From NCBI RefSeq assembly GCF_000264995.1, contig NW_006767441.1, forward strand, positions 1,664,816 to 1,693,058: DNA of 28,243 nucleotides, written 5' to 3'. Positions 11,117 through 27,563 of the stretch are shown here, in pieces. Below the pieces are notes generated by a model, which made no database searches, was not told the origin of the DNA, and saw nothing but the letters and a program-made list of their open reading frames with translations. This DNA comes from Punctularia strigosozonata HHB-11173 SS5. Taxonomy: Eukaryota; Basidiomycota; Agaricomycetes; Corticiales; Punctulariaceae. Within the stretch, counting starts at the first letter, position 1. Every line of letters starts with the position of its first letter. Position numbers and translations under genes: made by a program.

Positions 11117-12090
11117 GGTGCTACCATGGTTGGCAGCCTCGCGGGATCTGAGCCTGGTAGTTCCAGGATGCGTGGCTCATCCTGCCGCGGTGGTACCAGA
11201 TGGCCCAGGGGTGGAGTGGTAACACCATGAACTTACGCGCCGCGCCGGACATGCGGTGGTGGTTCCAGTCCCTGCCATGGTGCTACCGTGTAGGCCGGAC
11301 GGCAAAGCACGGTAGCACCATGCATGCAGGTTAGCTGCCCGACATGCGGTGGTGGTTCCAGTTCATGCCATGGTGCTACCGTGTAGGCCGGACGGCAAAG
11401 CACGGTAGCACCATGGATGCAGGCTAGCCGCCCGACGCTTGGTGGTGGTTCCGGTCACGCCACGGTGGTACCATGTCGGTTGCATGATAGGACCGGTACT
11501 ACCACGGGGATTATCGGTGAGCACGGCGCCGCTGGAGCTACCACCCATGTTCGGGCTAGCTCCGTTTGGTAGTACCCGCTCTCGTCGTGGCGCAGACCGT
11601 GGTAGAACCAGCCCTTCCCGCAAACAATGGCCTGGTAACCCCTGCATGGCGTTTGGAAGCACCACCAAACCCGGCACTGCACGAGATGGTAGCTCCACCG
11701 GTATGCGCAGATGAAGTACATGGGAGATCCAGTATGTCACTGGTACTCCGGCATCCTCGTAGTGATTCCTACTCGGGAGGTACGTATGTAGGAATGTTTT
11801 GCCCCGGGTCCGTAGTCTGACCGGAATGGACTGATACGACGCACATCTGGGATAATTCTGCATGTATGGAACGAGGTGTCCGGCCACGCAGATAATTCTG
11901 CAGGTGGCATTGCGGTGAACACAGTGCCCCCGTAAGATCTGAAGAGACCCTAACGCCCGCTGCATGTTAATCCGAGCATGTCGCTGTCACTTGGACCGTA
12001 TCGTCGGTATGAAAGCCAGACATACGTACGCAGAGCCCCCTGCCACCTCCGGAGGTACCACGACGACCCGAGTAAACCACTGGAGGTACC
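11117..12090. repeat. Cluster of GGTNNNACC motifs
   Basis: At least ten exact GGTNNNACC nonamers occur in under 1 kb, for example at 11117, 11189, 11279, 11372, 11404, 11464, 11495 and 11568. There are also many one-mismatch relatives (GGAGCTACC, GGTAGCTCC, GGAGGTACC at 12051 and 12082). The motif is symmetrical, so it occurs in both orientations. It may be a decayed satellite derived from the hairpin unit. Confidence 0.6.
11244..11430. repeat. Two 93-bp tandem units, each with a perfect hairpin
   Basis: Two near-identical units start at about 11244 and 11337, followed by a partial third to about 11455. Each unit contains an inverted repeat: 11276-11290 pairs with 11308-11322 (15 bp, perfect), and 11368-11383 pairs with 11401-11416 (16 bp, perfect). 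Both enclose the same 17-base loop. The stem is built from GGTGCTACC and its complement GGTAGCACC. Confidence 0.85.
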
Positions 12091-16600: not shown

Positions 16601-18844
16601 TATAAGCCTCTTCTTGGTCGATACGCCATTCCATGAACTTTTTCTTTGCTTCTTCTCTCTTCTCTTTATCTGTAATTTTGCTAATTGACTCGCGATATGC
16701 GGCCTTGAGCCGCTGCATGTATGTCTCTCTTGTCTCTATAGCCACAGTCAGCGCGCGATAATTGGTGGCATACCCGTAAATCAGCAAACTCACCAGTGCC
16801 ATCGGTCTTCATGGGATGCTCCAGGGCGTACCATGACGAGAATACATCCCATATGTTTCTGGCGCGATGCTTCGCTGGTCCATCATCCTGGAGGAGTCGC
16901 GCGATTGTTGCCGGCGACTTCTGAGTCAGTTTCGCCATCTTGGAGATGAACACGTCCATCTCCCCCTTGAACTTGGCAACCATCTCCTCGTGCTCCTTTG
17001 ATATCCGACCAGGCTGTGAGGAACGCTTTGGATTTTCGCCGCCAATCGTGCCGTCGTCGCCCGCAAGCTTAGCGTCCTTGCGACCTTTCCGACCGCGCTT
17101 CTTCGATGGCTCTTTCTCTTCGCCGATCTTAGCACTCTTGCTTGTCGTCCTTGCTCTGGATTTACCACGCCTAGTGCTGTTCGCAACACCCTTGCCATCC
17201 TTGCGAGTGCGGTTCTTGAGCACCTCTTCGACCTCGGAAGCCCCTCCAACTACCTCTGCCTCCTCATCGGATTTCTCGCTCTCGGAGGGCTGTTGGTAAT
17301 CTGAGCCGCTGCCTTCACTTTCTTCTATCTCGACGTGCACGCCTTGGCTGTCGGCAACTCCAGGGGACATATATAGCTTCGCAAACAGCTCGGGGTCATG
17401 GTCCTCCTCCTCCTCCTCCTCCTCCTCCTCTTCCTCCTCCTCCTCCTCCTCCTCCTCCTCCTCCTCCTCTGCTTCTGACACGAGCTCCGGCATGTCATCC
17501 ACCGGCTCCTCGGGCACCTCCAGATCCTCTTCATCTGGCATCTCCAGAGTTCGTCTCGGCAGTCGGGCATGGGAAGGAGAGCTGGGCGGGTGAGATGGCG
17601 ACGATGGAGGAGAGGTCCGTGGAGCACGAGACAGAGACTCCGGTGAGCTTCTGGGAGTATCGGGGATACAGCTTCCGCTTCTAGCGACGCGGAATGGATT
17701 CCCAGGGGAATCACGAGGATGTGACGCACGCTGGGGGATACTTGGTGTCGTGTTTGAAGCTCCACTGCCGGCCGGGCTCACGGTTTGTGACGCAGGGGGG
17801 GGGCGCCCCATTGCAACATCTATCTTCGCGAAGGCGGCTGCCACCCTCTCGTCGTACTTGGTACCTGTGCCTGGTGCCTGGGATGCGGGCGAGAGGTTTC
17901 CAATGTGAGGAGCTGCACATTCGACCTATGCTACGGCTGACGACCCTCGAACAGAACGGCCCGCAAGCACCACCAGAGCAAGAAGGCAACGGCGGTCTTG
18001 ACCCGGTCCTCAGGCTGCAAAAGTGTCACTCGCACCACAGGTCCGTTTCGTGGCACATCGACCTACACTACAGCTGACGATCGTCCAACAGAACGGCGCG
18101 CAAGCACCACCAGAGCGAGAAGGCGACGGCGGTCTTGGTCCCGCGAAACGGACCTGTGGTGCGGGAGACACTTTTGCAGCCTGAGTAGCCAGGTCAAGAC
18201 CGCCGTCGCCTTCGCACTCCGGTGGTGCTTGCACGCCGTTCTGTTGGATGATCGTCAGCCGTGGCGTAGGTTGAATGTGCCGCAAAACGGACCTGTGGTG
18301 CAGGAGACACTTTTGCAGCCTGAGGAGCCGGGTCAAGACCACCGTCGCCTTTGCGCTTTGATGCCACTTGCATGTCGTTCTGTTGAAGGGTCGTCAGTGG
18401 GAGCTCCGTACCAAACTCACACGCCGGAAGACAAACCTTAGGAGCAGATGTCTCTTCTGGAGGATTGGAGGCCCCTTGCTTTTCACCCCCCTTCTTACCG
18501 GGAGGAACTTTCCGTGAAGTTTGCGCTTTCTTCTGCCCTGAGTTCTGTGAGAAAAAGGCTCTTAGCTCGGCTCGAATAGCACGTAGAAAGAAGCCACACC
18601 TTCTTGCTGGATTCTTTGACGGATGCGACCTTCGCAGCGGCCCGCCTCGCGGAGGCCCTCGTTGTGATGGGTCCAGCGTCCGCAGGTCCACCTGTTGTCA
18701 CTGCTTGCTCCGGGATCACAACTGTGTTGTCGTTCTGCAGGATTGCGTCACCACTGCAGACGATTTAACAGTCGCATCCTCACTCACAGCTTTTCTCAGT
18801 CGCGATGGCCGGCCACTCTGGGTTGTTGGGCCCAACGCGTTCAT
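13606..18844 (-). CDS. Large unrecognised nuclear-type protein, about 16 exons
   Basis: Minus-strand exons 18844-18788, 18734-18600, 18544-18437, 18379-18293, 18240-18154, 17925-16794, 16735-16530, 16466-16297, 16249-16101, 16053-15785, 15728-15147, 15076-14774, 14724-14653, 14598-14497, 14445-14242 and 14199-13606 join in frame to 4257 bases (about 1418 residues). Nearly every intron is 41-70 bp, GT..AG. The N-terminal third is disordered and rich in S, P, K and R, with a run of about 25 Glu. Basic clusters such as KKRGRKGRK suggest a nuclear protein. A helical, faintly HMG-like segment (NIWDVFSSWYALEHP) sits near residue 515. A folded core follows (HVFGYVIDAHG, FGGSPEWEE, LPLILCWPLTDKEA). 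The tail is acidic, then basic, ending KPRPVNKRKRDA. Exons 4-5 are tandem repeats. The 228-bp intron after exon 5 contains inverted copies of them, so that junction is doubtful and the part upstream of 17925 could be a separate gene. Confidence 0.6.
17402..17470. repeat. CCT/AGG microsatellite encoding a poly-Glu run
   Basis: An almost pure trinucleotide run with two interruptions reads as about 23 consecutive glutamates in the minus-strand gene (16794-17925 exon). It is in frame with that gene, and the acidic stretch extends on both sides (SEAEEEE, DHDPELF). Confidence 0.9.
17915..18400. repeat. Four exon-plus-intron units, two direct and two inverted
   Basis: A unit of about 139 bp occurs four times. 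Two copies read on the minus strand (exons 18379-18293 and 18240-18154, 87 bp each, separated by a 52-bp intron). Two read on the plus strand (exon-like 17955-18040, 51-bp intron-like 18041-18091, then 18092-18137, cut short). The two pairs meet tail to tail at about 18138. The exon encodes 29 residues (GDGGLD..AAKVSPAPQ). The introns run from GTCCGT to CCAACAG with a GGCTGACGA branch region. The plus-oriented copy 17955-18040 has lost one base, so it would not keep the frame. Confidence 0.8.
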
Positions 18845-22982: not shown

Positions 22983-23815
22983 TGACTGCGGAGGAAACAC
23001 GTATCATCAGACAGTTGCGGCACAACCGTGCGTCAAATCCGCTGTTTAACGCGGGCGAGCGCATCGAGTATGCCGTCTACCTCCAACGCGTCCTGATGAC
23101 ATCGTCCAAGGGCGCACAACTGAGAAATAGTAAGCAATGTCTAGAGGTTACACGGGCACGAGACGTACCGCGGCGAGGGACATACAATCGACTGCGGAGG
23201 GAACACGTATCATCAGACAGTTGCGGCACAACCGTGCGTCAAATCCGCTGTTTAACGCAGGGCGAGCGCATCGAGTATGCCGTCTACCTCCAACGCGTCC
23301 TGATGACATCGTCCAAGGGCGCACAACTGAGAAACAGTAAGCGATGTCTACAGGTTACACGGGCACGAGACATACCGCGGCGAGGGATATACAATTCGCT
23401 TCTCGATTGTGCACAAAGCCTAGCATGAAACTGGTCAGTCTCATGGCGGGGTGTAGGTATTGAATGCTATTACAGTTCCTGCTTACGCATAGTAAGCACA
23501 TCCGGCGCAGAAGAAATGAAAGCCCGCCCACCGTCCACGGGCAGCACCCATCGAGCCCGTCAACTGCGGAGGGAACACGTATCATCAGACGGCTGCGGCA
23601 CGACCGTGCGTCAAATCCGTTGTTTAACGTGGGGCGAGCGCATCGAGTACGTCGTCTACCTCAGATGCGTCCTGATGATATCGTCCAAGGGCGCACAACT
23701 GAGAAGAAGTAAGTGATGTCTGGAGGCATGGGCACGAGACGTACTACGGCGAGAGACATACGGCGTGCTTCTTGATTGTGCACGAAGCCTAGTATGAAAC
23801 TGGTTAGTCTCATGC
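22983..23815 (+). repeat. Three copies of a 210-bp or longer coding-like unit
   Basis: Units at 22983-23189 and 23190-23398 are adjacent. A third at about 23562-23815 is separated by 160 bp. Copies 1 and 3 share sequence upstream of the unit (CCCATCGAGCCC), and copies 2 and 3 share sequence downstream (GAAACTGGT.AGTCTCATG), so the original unit was larger. In plus frames each reads TRIIRQLRHNRASNPLFN and ERIEY.VYL..VLM.SSKGAQLR, then a splice-donor-like GTAAG. A one-base difference after FN shifts copies 2 and 3 relative to copy 1. Confidence 0.75.
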
Positions 23816-24529: not shown

Positions 24530-27500
24530 ATGGCTCTGAAAATCCCAAGATCATTTCTGCGGTCTGCTCGTGACCCCTCCAGCAGCCATCGAAACTTGGA
24601 AGAGGGGCCTTCAATCTCTCGGAGCGGAAAATTCTCCGTTGAGACGAACCATCCGCCCCCCGTTGTGCATCTACCTAATCACCGTACTCTAGTGCAAACT
24701 GGCCACTACCGCGGCACGACTAGTCTGGTCTATGAAGATTTCCCTCTCCTCGAAAATGATCTGCCTCAACGCGATGAAAATGCAGGCAATGACGAAGGCA
24801 CGGAAGGAGTCGATATGGCAATCCAGGAAGATCACTCGATGCCATTCTCCACACCCATAGCTGGCCGCTTCGCATCTCCTCTCCATTTTCCTAGCCATAA
24901 TGATGACAACAGTATGGTCCATCAGGCGCAATACGCCCGAAAGAAGCTGAATCAATGGCAACGATGGCAATCGGAAACCATCCCGGACCTCCTAGAGCCT
25001 TACATGACATACATGTGGGCCACGTCCCATATGACCACCAAGGCGCCACCAGTTCCTGATTGCAGCTGCGCTGGAGGCAGAAGGATTCTGAAAGTATTGG
25101 CGGTGTTCTGTGATCGTGAGCCCCTTCCATGGCCCTCTTCTACCTCTATCCGAACTGATCGACCTTTGCGATAGGCCTGGAGAAAATTGAGCTATCCATA
25201 TGTTCATGCATGCCCGTAGCCCGTCAATTACTGGCCCGTGGCTTGTTCCCGTGCGCCCCTCAATCACCATCGCTCGCATTCGACTTGAACATGCTTGAAC
25301 TCATCGCGACACTATTCGTTAATGTCGCGCCGAACATTACGGCATGGGCGACTACGCTGGAGTCATTCTTAGGTGTCCGCCAATATCGCCTTGAAACTCG
25401 GGTGAGCCTCATCCAAATGCTGACGATGGTCACGCTAAACATAGCTTTTGATGAATAGGACTCGTTGCGGAGGCGCTTTGGGAATGCACTCACTTGGTAT
25501 ATCCACCTTGTGAACTGTGTCAAGCAGAAGACTTGGCAAGCCCTAGAAGCTGCAAGGGAGGACATGAGCCAACGGGAAGTAGAAATGTCGGACAACGATC
25601 ACCCTGCAGTACTCGAGACGACCGAAGGCGAAGGGTGGATGCCGAGAGGTACGTTGACGTTGGATCAATCGCCCCAGACGCTCATCCCTCCTTCCCGGCT
25701 CACAGCGTCCTCTTCTCATGTCGCTCCGGCAACACCGACAGCCCGAAATCACCCTGCAGTACCCGAGACTACCGAAGGCGAAGGGTCGACACCGAGAGGT
25801 ACGTTGACGTTGGATCGGTTGCCCCAGACGCTCATCCCTCCTTCCCGGCTCACAGCATCCTCTTCTCATGTCGCTCCGGCAACGCCGACAGCCCGAAATC
25901 ACCCTGCAGTACCCGAGACTACCGAAGGTGAAGGGCGGACGCCGAGAGGTATGTTGACGTTGGATTGGTTGCCTCAGACGCTCATCCTCCTTCTCGGCTC
26001 AAGGGTCTCCTTCTCGTGTCACTCCGGCGACACCGAAAGCCCGAAATCGCCCTGCAGTACCTGAGACGACCGAAGGCAAAGGGTCGACACCGAGAGGTAT
26101 GTCGATGTTGCATTAATCACCTCAGGCTCTCATTTCTCTCCGTTTTGCAGTGTCTTCTTCGACCGGTGCTTCAACCCTACCCACGGACCCGCCTGTGACT
26201 TCTCAAGCCAAGGCATCGCCACCCAAATCTGTGAGCGCTTATCTGCGCTCAAGATGTCCGCTGTGCTTCGGCGCAAGTGTACGGCGTGAAGACAGCGATG
26301 AGTGAGTAAAACAGGAAAATATTGTGACTTTCTCTAATCGGTATGCTAGACTCGACGTGATAGTGTGTTTAGATGCTTGCTTTACGCAAAAACGTTGCGC
26401 TGCAGCCGGTAGAGACCCTGTCCGGCGCCATCCCGCCTCGGTATTTCTAACGGAGTCCGAGGTCAAAGACATGGAGAGGGAGGTCGAGGAGAAACGAAAA
26501 GGGCGACCGTATCGTGTAATGCAACCTACGAATGCGCGAGCACGAAAAAGAGACCCAAAGATCACACCGAACCTGGTCTCTGAATCAAGAGCCGAGAATA
26601 TGGAGGCAGGACATCATGTATCGGATCAGAATGTGCGCAAACGAAAGAGCACCACATCGAAGGCCCATATTCAGATACCTGCAACAGACAAGCGGACGAG
26701 CGGACGGCCTCAGCCCGCTTCAAGATCACCGCATGTTGAGATTGTGGAGGAGGAAGATACTTGCGAAGGTCCTCTGAAGGTTCCCAACTCCGTACTGGAC
26801 GGCTGCGAGGCATCGTTCAAGGCAGCGGATGAACAACGGGAGAAAGCGAGCACCCGGTTCTTCGACGATACGGGGCTCATGGCGCTCATGTGCCGCCATG
26901 ACCGTGTGCTATGGCTTGCCAACATGACGAGTGCGGGAGAGCGACAGCATTATGCAATCGCTCTTCTGGACCAATTCTTCCGTCATATACCGTCCTACAT
27001 GCGCGTGGGAGTACTCTACGATATCGGATGCCAGTTGGATCGCAGCTGCTGGCATTGGAATTTGCTGCCAGAATTCCGCAAACGCATCACGTTCGGAATC
27101 TCTGTCTTCCACGCCTACGGTCATCAATGGCCGTGCCAGGTCATCTACCACCCTTGCAAGTGCAATTGTTTTGGACTGTCGGATGGAGAAAGCTGCGAGA
27201 GGTTTTGGAGTGCAATCGATCATTTAGTCGCAGTGCTTCGCGTGAGCGGGGTAGGTGATGTTCATCCTTGTGAAATATAATCCGAAGCTCATTGTTCTTC
27301 AGTTTCATCAAAGGTTGTATGTCATCGACACGCAAATACATCATCTCGATGCAGTTCAGCGGCGTAGCCTCGGAGATTGGCTAGCTAATAAATATTTTGC
27401 TTGCCGCTCTCGCGCAATCGTGGCTGAACGAGGTCTCGTCAAGTGTGGGAAGTCGATGGCGACGCTACGGAAGGAATGGGACGCGCAGAAAGCCGCACAG

Positions 27501-27563
27501 ACGCGGTGTCGAAACGAGTTTTGTGTGGTGAGGCTGTGTCGAAGAGGCGAGAGGAATTCTTGA
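24530..27563 (+). CDS. KDZ-superfamily transposase with CxC1-like cysteine cluster
   Basis: Nine exons (24530-25115, 25175-25401, 25459-25648, 25706-25798, 25856-25948, 26004-26096, 26151-26301, 26350-27250, 27303-27563) join to 2595 bases, 864 residues. The ATG at 24530 has a CCATGG context. Residues 150-260 hold the cysteine cluster (C178, C180, C194, C205, C207, C222 in CSC..FCDRLE..CSC..GLFPC). Three 31-residue repeats follow (about 335-427), then CPLC at 463. The transposase core shows D486 (VIVCLDACFTQKR), D702 (LYDIGCQL) and Glu 758/761 (DGESCERFWSAI), consistent with a DDE nuclease. The last exon keeps family-like LGDWL and LRKEWDAQ motifs. The usual long C-terminal helical region is missing, so the 3' end looks truncated or frameshifted near 27500. 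The core could be intact, but activity is doubtful. Confidence 0.85.
25600..26150 (+). repeat. Tandem 150-bp exon-intron units in the KDZ gene
   Basis: Units start at 25600, 25750, 25900 and 26048 (periods 150, 150, 148). Each holds coding sequence ending CCGAGAG, then a donor (GTACGT or GTATGT) and an acceptor: predicted introns 25649-25705, 25799-25855, 25949-26003 and 26097-26150. The spliced exons are exactly 93 bases and phase 1 on both sides, giving 31 residues with core HPAVPETTEGEG. The third unit's 2-base loss lies within the intron. The fourth intron has in-frame stops and must be removed. Confidence 0.85.

Follow-up and report, generated by a model that had tools for sequence, protein, structure and literature searches.

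A transposase gene at the end of a Punctularia strigosozonata contig carries a tandem array in which each unit holds a complete candidate intron together with flanking exon sequence. Judging from the array itself and from related genes in the same genome, we put at roughly 0.8 the probability that the array arose when a linker segment containing an old intron of this gene was duplicated in tandem. The stretch analyzed, hereafter the window, is 28,243 nt long and reaches the contig end, in a genome of 33.57 Mb in 32 contigs. By its domain matches, the host gene of the array is a KDZ (Kyakuja-Dileera-Zisupton) transposase of the CxC1 type: a profile search places the KDZ domain PF18758 at 26306-27280 (E 4.8e-60, 203.4 bits against a cut-off of 26.6) and the CxC1 domain PF18802 at 25159-25458 (E 1.1e-8, 35.5 bits against a cut-off of 26.9), the latter match spanning profile positions 37-103 of 105. 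These matches confirm the KDZ identity proposed in a preliminary description of this DNA.

Array units with complete candidate introns

The array occupies 25598..26110 on the forward strand, as do all gene features given below, and sits in the linker that joins the CxC1 part to the KDZ catalytic exon. Its period is 150 bp, repeated 3.4 times according to Tandem Repeats Finder (TRF; 89% matches, score 788) and the unit alignment. Four candidate introns, all GT-AG and in phase 1, are found here: intron 1 at 25649..25705 (57 bp, score 20.8 in the splice-site model described below), intron 2 at 25799..25855 (57 bp, 20.8), intron 3 at 25949..26003 (55 bp, 14.4, with a weakened CAAG acceptor), and intron 4 at 26097..26150 (54 bp, 17.6, with the 3' end TTTTGCAG), the last of which is perhaps the nearest to the ancestral intron. 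Between them, frame analysis and the splice model place three internal exons of 93 bp, each symmetric in phase 1, at 25706..25798, 25856..25948, and 26004..26096; the outer exons measure 190 bp (from 25459) and 151 bp. The preliminary description had counted four units of one 93-bp exon and one intron each. Its four introns and their coordinates stand, but the 93-bp exons number three, as the fourth unit is partial and its likeness fades past intron 4. The multiplication in tandem of an exon-plus-intron unit, adding 31 residues per unit, is upheld.

In the unit alignment, internal gaps are confined to the part between GT and AG. The net 2-bp loss that had been assigned to the inside of an intron resolves into two separate 1-bp gaps in intron 3, one of which changes the acceptor from CACAG to CAAG. 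When read without splicing, the frame opened at 25459 stops at 26064, whereas the spliced frame continues through CPLC into the KDZ exon; both outcomes had been anticipated in the preliminary description. Retention of intron 3 shifts the frame and exposes three stops, and retention of intron 4 alone brings in one stop. Hence, removal of introns 3 and 4 is needed to keep the frame open.

A shared linker intron in related genes

The genome contains 48 KDZ matches, counted exon by exon, and nine loci other than the window (L002-L009 and L011) are close paralogues, with 51-64% amino acid identity over the catalytic exon. We annotated the linker by eye in eight of them (L002-L006, L008, L009, and L011). 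A phase-1 intron lies at the equivalent place, 127-157 bp past the DSLRRRF-like start, in all of these except L004. It is single in five of the seven (L002, L005, L006, L009, and L011) and multiplied in L008 and L003. A further intron, in phase 2, lies just before the catalytic exon in all eight, and the 19 paralogue introns span 48-64 bp. The linker of L007 (C4:1115192-1118950) is unreadable, as its locus contains 883 N and lacks a match to the exon that precedes the array. Because the nearest CxC1 match to this locus, among the matches listed, lies ~6.5 kb upstream (C4:1110179), and given the run of N, its linker may hold an insertion.

The presence of the intron in these relatives, single in some of them, suggests a simple course of events. 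The ancestral gene would have had a poorly conserved, insertion-tolerant linker carrying one old phase-1 intron. Tandem duplication, by replication slippage or unequal crossing over, would then have had both breakpoints in the exons flanking this intron, such that an exon tail, the whole intron, and an exon head were copied together. Each additional copy would contribute a complete intron and a 93-bp exon formed from the downstream head fused to the upstream tail, and the spliced protein would gain 31 residues per copy with its frame kept; repeated rounds would have yielded the four introns. Such a head-tail fusion would make the last exon start in the same manner as the internal ones, and it does so both in the window (SSS..) and in L008 (ADPQATP..). 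Two other readings were considered and rejected: the creation of introns from an AGGT-bearing exon, because the paralogues already possess an intron here, and splice motifs arising by chance in a coding repeat, on the basis of the frame analysis and the paralogue introns.

Splice-site model and alternative readings of the array

The splice-site model combines position weights from the 19 paralogue introns, none of which comes from the window, with a hand-set branch-site score, and searches in a frame-aware manner for the best exon chain under a penalty that was varied between runs. In the window, the chain returned at penalties of 10, 12, 14, 16, and 18 matches the four array introns and the next candidate intron (26302-26349) exactly. 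When the search is barred from using any of the four array introns, the score falls by 23.9, 21.5, and 17.5 units at penalties of 12, 14, and 16, respectively. In leave-one-out runs at penalties of 10, 12, 14, and 16, the annotated structure is recovered exactly in four of four runs for L002 and L003, in three of four for L009 and L006, and in two of four for L004.

Several observations weigh against our reading of the array. The splice sites of the paralogues were first picked by eye with the frame in view, and at a penalty of 7 none of the nine genes is returned as annotated, the window gaining four extra introns. The leave-one-out runs at penalties 10-16 are never exact for L008, L005, and L011: in L008 the donor is always placed 12 bp further downstream (GT for GC, with the frame kept) and one extra intron appears at the two lower penalties, while L005 and L011 keep their own introns with one or two added. 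Within the array, the TNAAT-like box of introns 1 and 4 has been lost from introns 2 and 3, which rely on CTCAT instead, and intron 3 has the weak acceptor described above. If intron 3 alone is forbidden, the cost is 2.6, 4.6, and 6.6 units at penalties of 12, 14, and 16, with an alternative chain taking over; on its own, this intron is only weakly favored. Finally, the frame stays open if intron 1, intron 2, or both are retained. Overall, the model backs the array introns when they are taken together, and it calls too many introns elsewhere. The four scores do not amount to four independent tests, since the introns are copies of one another; the independent test is, rather, the one that the paralogue sequences offer.

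To gauge how rare such scores are, candidate introns were counted on either strand over the initial 24.5 kb of the window, a background that may itself contain real introns. It holds 2.5-3.5 candidates per kb with a score of at least 14, 1.1-1.4 with at least 16, 0.3-0.6 with at least 18, and 0-0.3 with at least 20. These figures bear on an alternative in which the array is a coding minisatellite of 50 codons per unit, unspliced in units 1 and 2 of a decaying gene, with splice-like motifs that are relics or the result of chance. The open unspliced frame over the first units would fit this account, as would the fact that the 150-bp units and the 57-bp introns are both multiples of three, and coding repeats free of introns do occur in the equivalent linker of L009 and L005. 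We regard it as very unlikely, however: the unspliced frame ends short of the KDZ exon, an intron is present here in seven of eight paralogues, and scores as high as those of introns 1 and 2 are scarce elsewhere, even if the 17.6 and 14.4 of introns 4 and 3 are less rare.

A second alternative accepts the introns and proposes that the symmetric exons are variably included, giving several linker lengths, somewhat as with the tandem splice sites reported in polyubiquitin. Since the internal exons are 93 bp long with phase 1 at both ends, every combination of skipped exons would keep the frame, and the weaker branch or acceptor signals of introns 2 and 3 could favor skipping. Yet leaving out even one exon requires a 202-207 bp intron, when those of the paralogues measure 48-64 bp and those of the array 54-57 bp, and we consider this slightly less probable still. 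For duplication of an intron-bearing segment, the reading that we prefer, we infer from the DNA that the array introns are spliced in the cell.

Recurrence of linker repeats in the gene family

Self-comparison reveals internal linker repeats in 6 of the 10 close genes (the window, L002, L003, L005, L008, and L009). None was detected in L004, L006, or L011, nor in the unreadable L007. As a control, the same threshold gave no internal repeats in any of 20 other KDZ loci (L012-L031), which reach only 1.5 kb past the match, barely resemble the window gene, and in some cases overlap one gene.

The repeats differ in what they copy. L008 has an offset of 165 bp and three phase-1 introns of 56, 60, and 60 bp, separated by 99- and 105-bp exons (the former would be 111 bp if the alternative donor of the second exon were used); all three introns retain CTAAT 17-21 bp from the end despite ~30% divergence. 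L003 contains a 285-bp duplication without gaps, comprising two 54-bp introns that contain stops and a 231-bp exon between them. In L002 (C7:1258610-1262398), the repeat takes in the CFGGTG motif along with the phase-2 intron that comes next, and the intron copies flank a 252-bp exon; the cysteine motif before the catalytic exon is thus partly doubled in this locus. GC donors are seen in three of the candidate linker introns, at L008 927-982 (GCAAGT), L008 1082-1141 (GCGAGT), and L003 1171-1224 (GCGAGT), the intron at L008 1082 having a GT donor 12 bp downstream as an alternative.

In L009 and L005, the repeats lie within one exon and are free of introns. The preliminary description had named a related gene with repeats wholly inside one exon as a finding that would speak against its proposal. 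Such genes exist in these two loci, but they do not refute splicing in the window; they do suggest that the carriage of an intron is incidental to growth of the linker.

The internal exons of the intron-bearing repeats, at 93, 93, 93, 99, 105, 231, and 252 bp, are all multiples of three, although the three 93-bp exons of the window are not independent of each other and the frame was taken into account when the sites were picked. Alignments of exon copies contain gap runs of 6 bp in L008 and 12 bp in L009. Between intron copies, they are 4 bp and two of 1 bp in L008, 3, 1, and 3 bp in L002, and net 2 and 3 bp in the window. The exon alignment of L003 also has two compensating 4-bp gaps, and that of L009 has a 32-bp end gap, both of which we take as alignment effects.

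Age and independence of the duplications

In a tree of the catalytic exon, the window, L008, L009, L003, and L002 stand apart from the other five genes (96/98), and L003 joins L002 (97/94); the order of the window, L008, and L009 is not settled by the tree. Identity between the array units of the window is 82-88%, whereas its catalytic exon is 78.5% identical to that of L008 and 77.1% to that of L009. Because the units are more alike than the catalytic exons, the sequences suggest that the array arose after the split from L008 and L009. The repeat copies of L008 are 71.7% alike, below the identity of the window catalytic exon to either gene, so that the duplication in L008 could be older than the split, a loose comparison given that the linker is less constrained. 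The linker repeats of the window and L008 are not recognizably alike, with only the last 14 residues matching, and those of the window and L009 give weak low-complexity matches (E 1e-4 to 3e-3). Separate origins appear likely for the window and for L002, the latter having copied another intron.

Mixed divergence of exons and introns

The preliminary description had taken the constant exon length as a sign of selection on the spliced product. The length changes among units consist of two 1-bp gaps and one 3-bp gap, all in introns, which make up 38% of the unit; all three would fall there by chance with a probability of ~0.05, assuming independence. For substitutions, summed over the pairs of units 1-3, exons differ at 32 of 279 positions and introns at 14 of 167. 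In comparison with unit 4, differences affect 19 of 153 positions in the 51 bp before the donor, 30 of 111 in the exon head after the acceptor, and 43 of 158 in the intron. One pair of the six, units 2 and 4, has an exon tail less changed than the intron (nominal p 0.002, uncorrected), and for the whole exon against the intron the same pair gives a nominal p of 0.040, again uncorrected; the other five pairs display no nominal difference between exon tail and intron. The unit-4 pattern could reflect partial gene conversion or a constrained exon tail. Pairs of array exons differ at 6, 11, and 17 of 93 positions, with ratios of silent to residue-changing codons of 4:1, 4:7, and 7:8. With exons and introns diverging to a like degree in units 1-3, a mixed picture in unit 4, introns 1 and 2 that could stay in the transcript without breaking the frame, and a copy interrupted downstream by an interspersed repeat, selection on the spliced product is not established, and we rejected exon conservation as proof of it; this part of the earlier proposal was not borne out.

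The catalytic exon presents a clearer pattern. Differences at codon positions 1, 2, and 3 number 56, 45, and 150 relative to L008, and 54, 40, and 140 relative to L009. As they concentrate at third positions, these counts indicate that the catalytic exons of the window, L008, and L009 were under constraint in the past.

Structure and state of the host gene

Upstream of the array, a CxC1-like cysteine cluster lies in an open frame at 25159..25458 (PF18802; 65-78% amino acid identity to eight paralogues), the end of which, from about 25401 (GTGAGC) to 25458, is probably an intron as read by eye. The exon before the array, 25459..25648, begins with DSLRRRFGNAL..., ends in phase 1, and has 46-62% identity to eight paralogues by tblastn. 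After the array, paralogue comparison and the splice model define an exon at 26151..26301 with the SAYLRSRCPLCFG motif common to the paralogues. The next candidate intron, 26302..26349, is 48 bp long, in phase 2, and has a score of 10.2; it corresponds to the phase-2 intron of all eight paralogues read. The KDZ catalytic exon follows at 26350..27253, its downstream border being approximate (PF18758; identity to the nine paralogues as above).

The last stretch homologous to the paralogue transposases is 27297..27506, or to 27530 with L002. An interspersed repeat takes the place of the C-terminal exons from about 27500 to the contig end at 28243; with this copy counted, the genome holds it at 19 places, and its best other copy is 97% alike. 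The window does not contain a complete transposase with its C-terminal exons. The paralogue loci have long further open stretches beyond the equivalent of this point, and in L008 and L003 the downstream exons seem to be there. The missing exons could lie past the contig end, but from its sequence the window copy is probably not a working transposase now. We lean toward the view that the array arose in an intact gene and that this copy has since died because the interspersed repeat took away or displaced the C-terminal exons, a history compatible with duplication of an intron-bearing segment. The abrupt end of homology and the similarity of the repeat to another copy are in line with this history, and divergence is 5-6% between array units 1 and 2 and higher among the others, so the array may predate the insertion. 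On the other hand, no stops interrupt the retained exons of the linker and KDZ domain, and the contig end cuts off further sequence.

KDZ elements have terminal inverted repeats and target duplications of 7-8 bp, according to two papers (PMC12730594, PMC12810828); in the window, the 3' end of such an element has been lost or falls past the contig end. A search of the KDZ stretch against viral_contigs gave no matches, and a DNA search with the array sequence returned only the array itself. TRF also reports three other repeats in the window: two copies of a 207-bp unit at 22984-23395 (96% match), a 139-bp tandem repeat at 18141-18397 (1.8 copies, 84% match), and a 93-bp tandem repeat at 11243-11476 (2.5 copies, 86% match).

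Discussion

Multiplication of an intron along with its exon surroundings has precedents. The closest is CNN00420 of Cryptococcus neoformans (Sharpton et al. 2008), in which repeats of exon ends and a full intron, with a unit of ~107 nt, occur beside exonic repeats; splicing there is backed by expressed sequence tags (ESTs), and strains differ in copy number (PMC2395259). It is, like the window gene, a basidiomycete gene that gained extra introns by repeat copying, with exonic repeats alongside. The window differs in that its gene encodes a transposase, the unit measures 150 bp, the introns are candidates read from DNA, and paralogues show similar events. In Arabidopsis TOUCH3 (Knowles and McLysaght 2006, via PMC4974935), a pre-existing intron was multiplied with exon on both sides, which resembles the window in the copying of an old intron with its flanking exon, although the gene family is different. 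Internal duplications with entire introns were described by Gao and Lynch (2009), as cited in PMC4974935.

The Rogers model, by which introns originate from AGGT-bearing exonic duplications, as in a potato RdRp case (PMC4974935), and the dual-specific splice sites of polyubiquitin (PMC10809524) share with the window a link between tandem repeats and intron number, and splicing that can spare the frame. The difference is that each unit of the window holds a complete older intron that is shorter than the unit. For KDZ genes, we found no report of intron-bearing tandem repeats among the open-license papers listed, judged by title or the opening of the abstract; the term "tandem repeat" is absent from the available passages of PMC12730594, as is "tandem" from those of PMC12810828.

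The recurrence of such repeats raises the idea that the CxC1-KDZ linker is a hot spot at which intron-bearing segments are multiplied repeatedly and separately, the number of introns acting as a dial for linker length and the skipping of symmetric exons perhaps adding a choice of isoforms. We consider this doubtful as matters stand. The mechanism is ordinary and already published, and what its recurrence in a single transposase family adds is modest. Intron gain and protein lengthening by this type of duplication are known but have seldom been documented. What the family provides is a set of cases within one genome, in which four of the nine genes read (the window, L008, L003, and L002) copied an intron with its exon and two (L009 and L005) copied exon alone. 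With such a set, one can study how frequently introns remain spliced after being copied, and whether splicing releases tandem repeats in genes from the rule that their length be a multiple of three.
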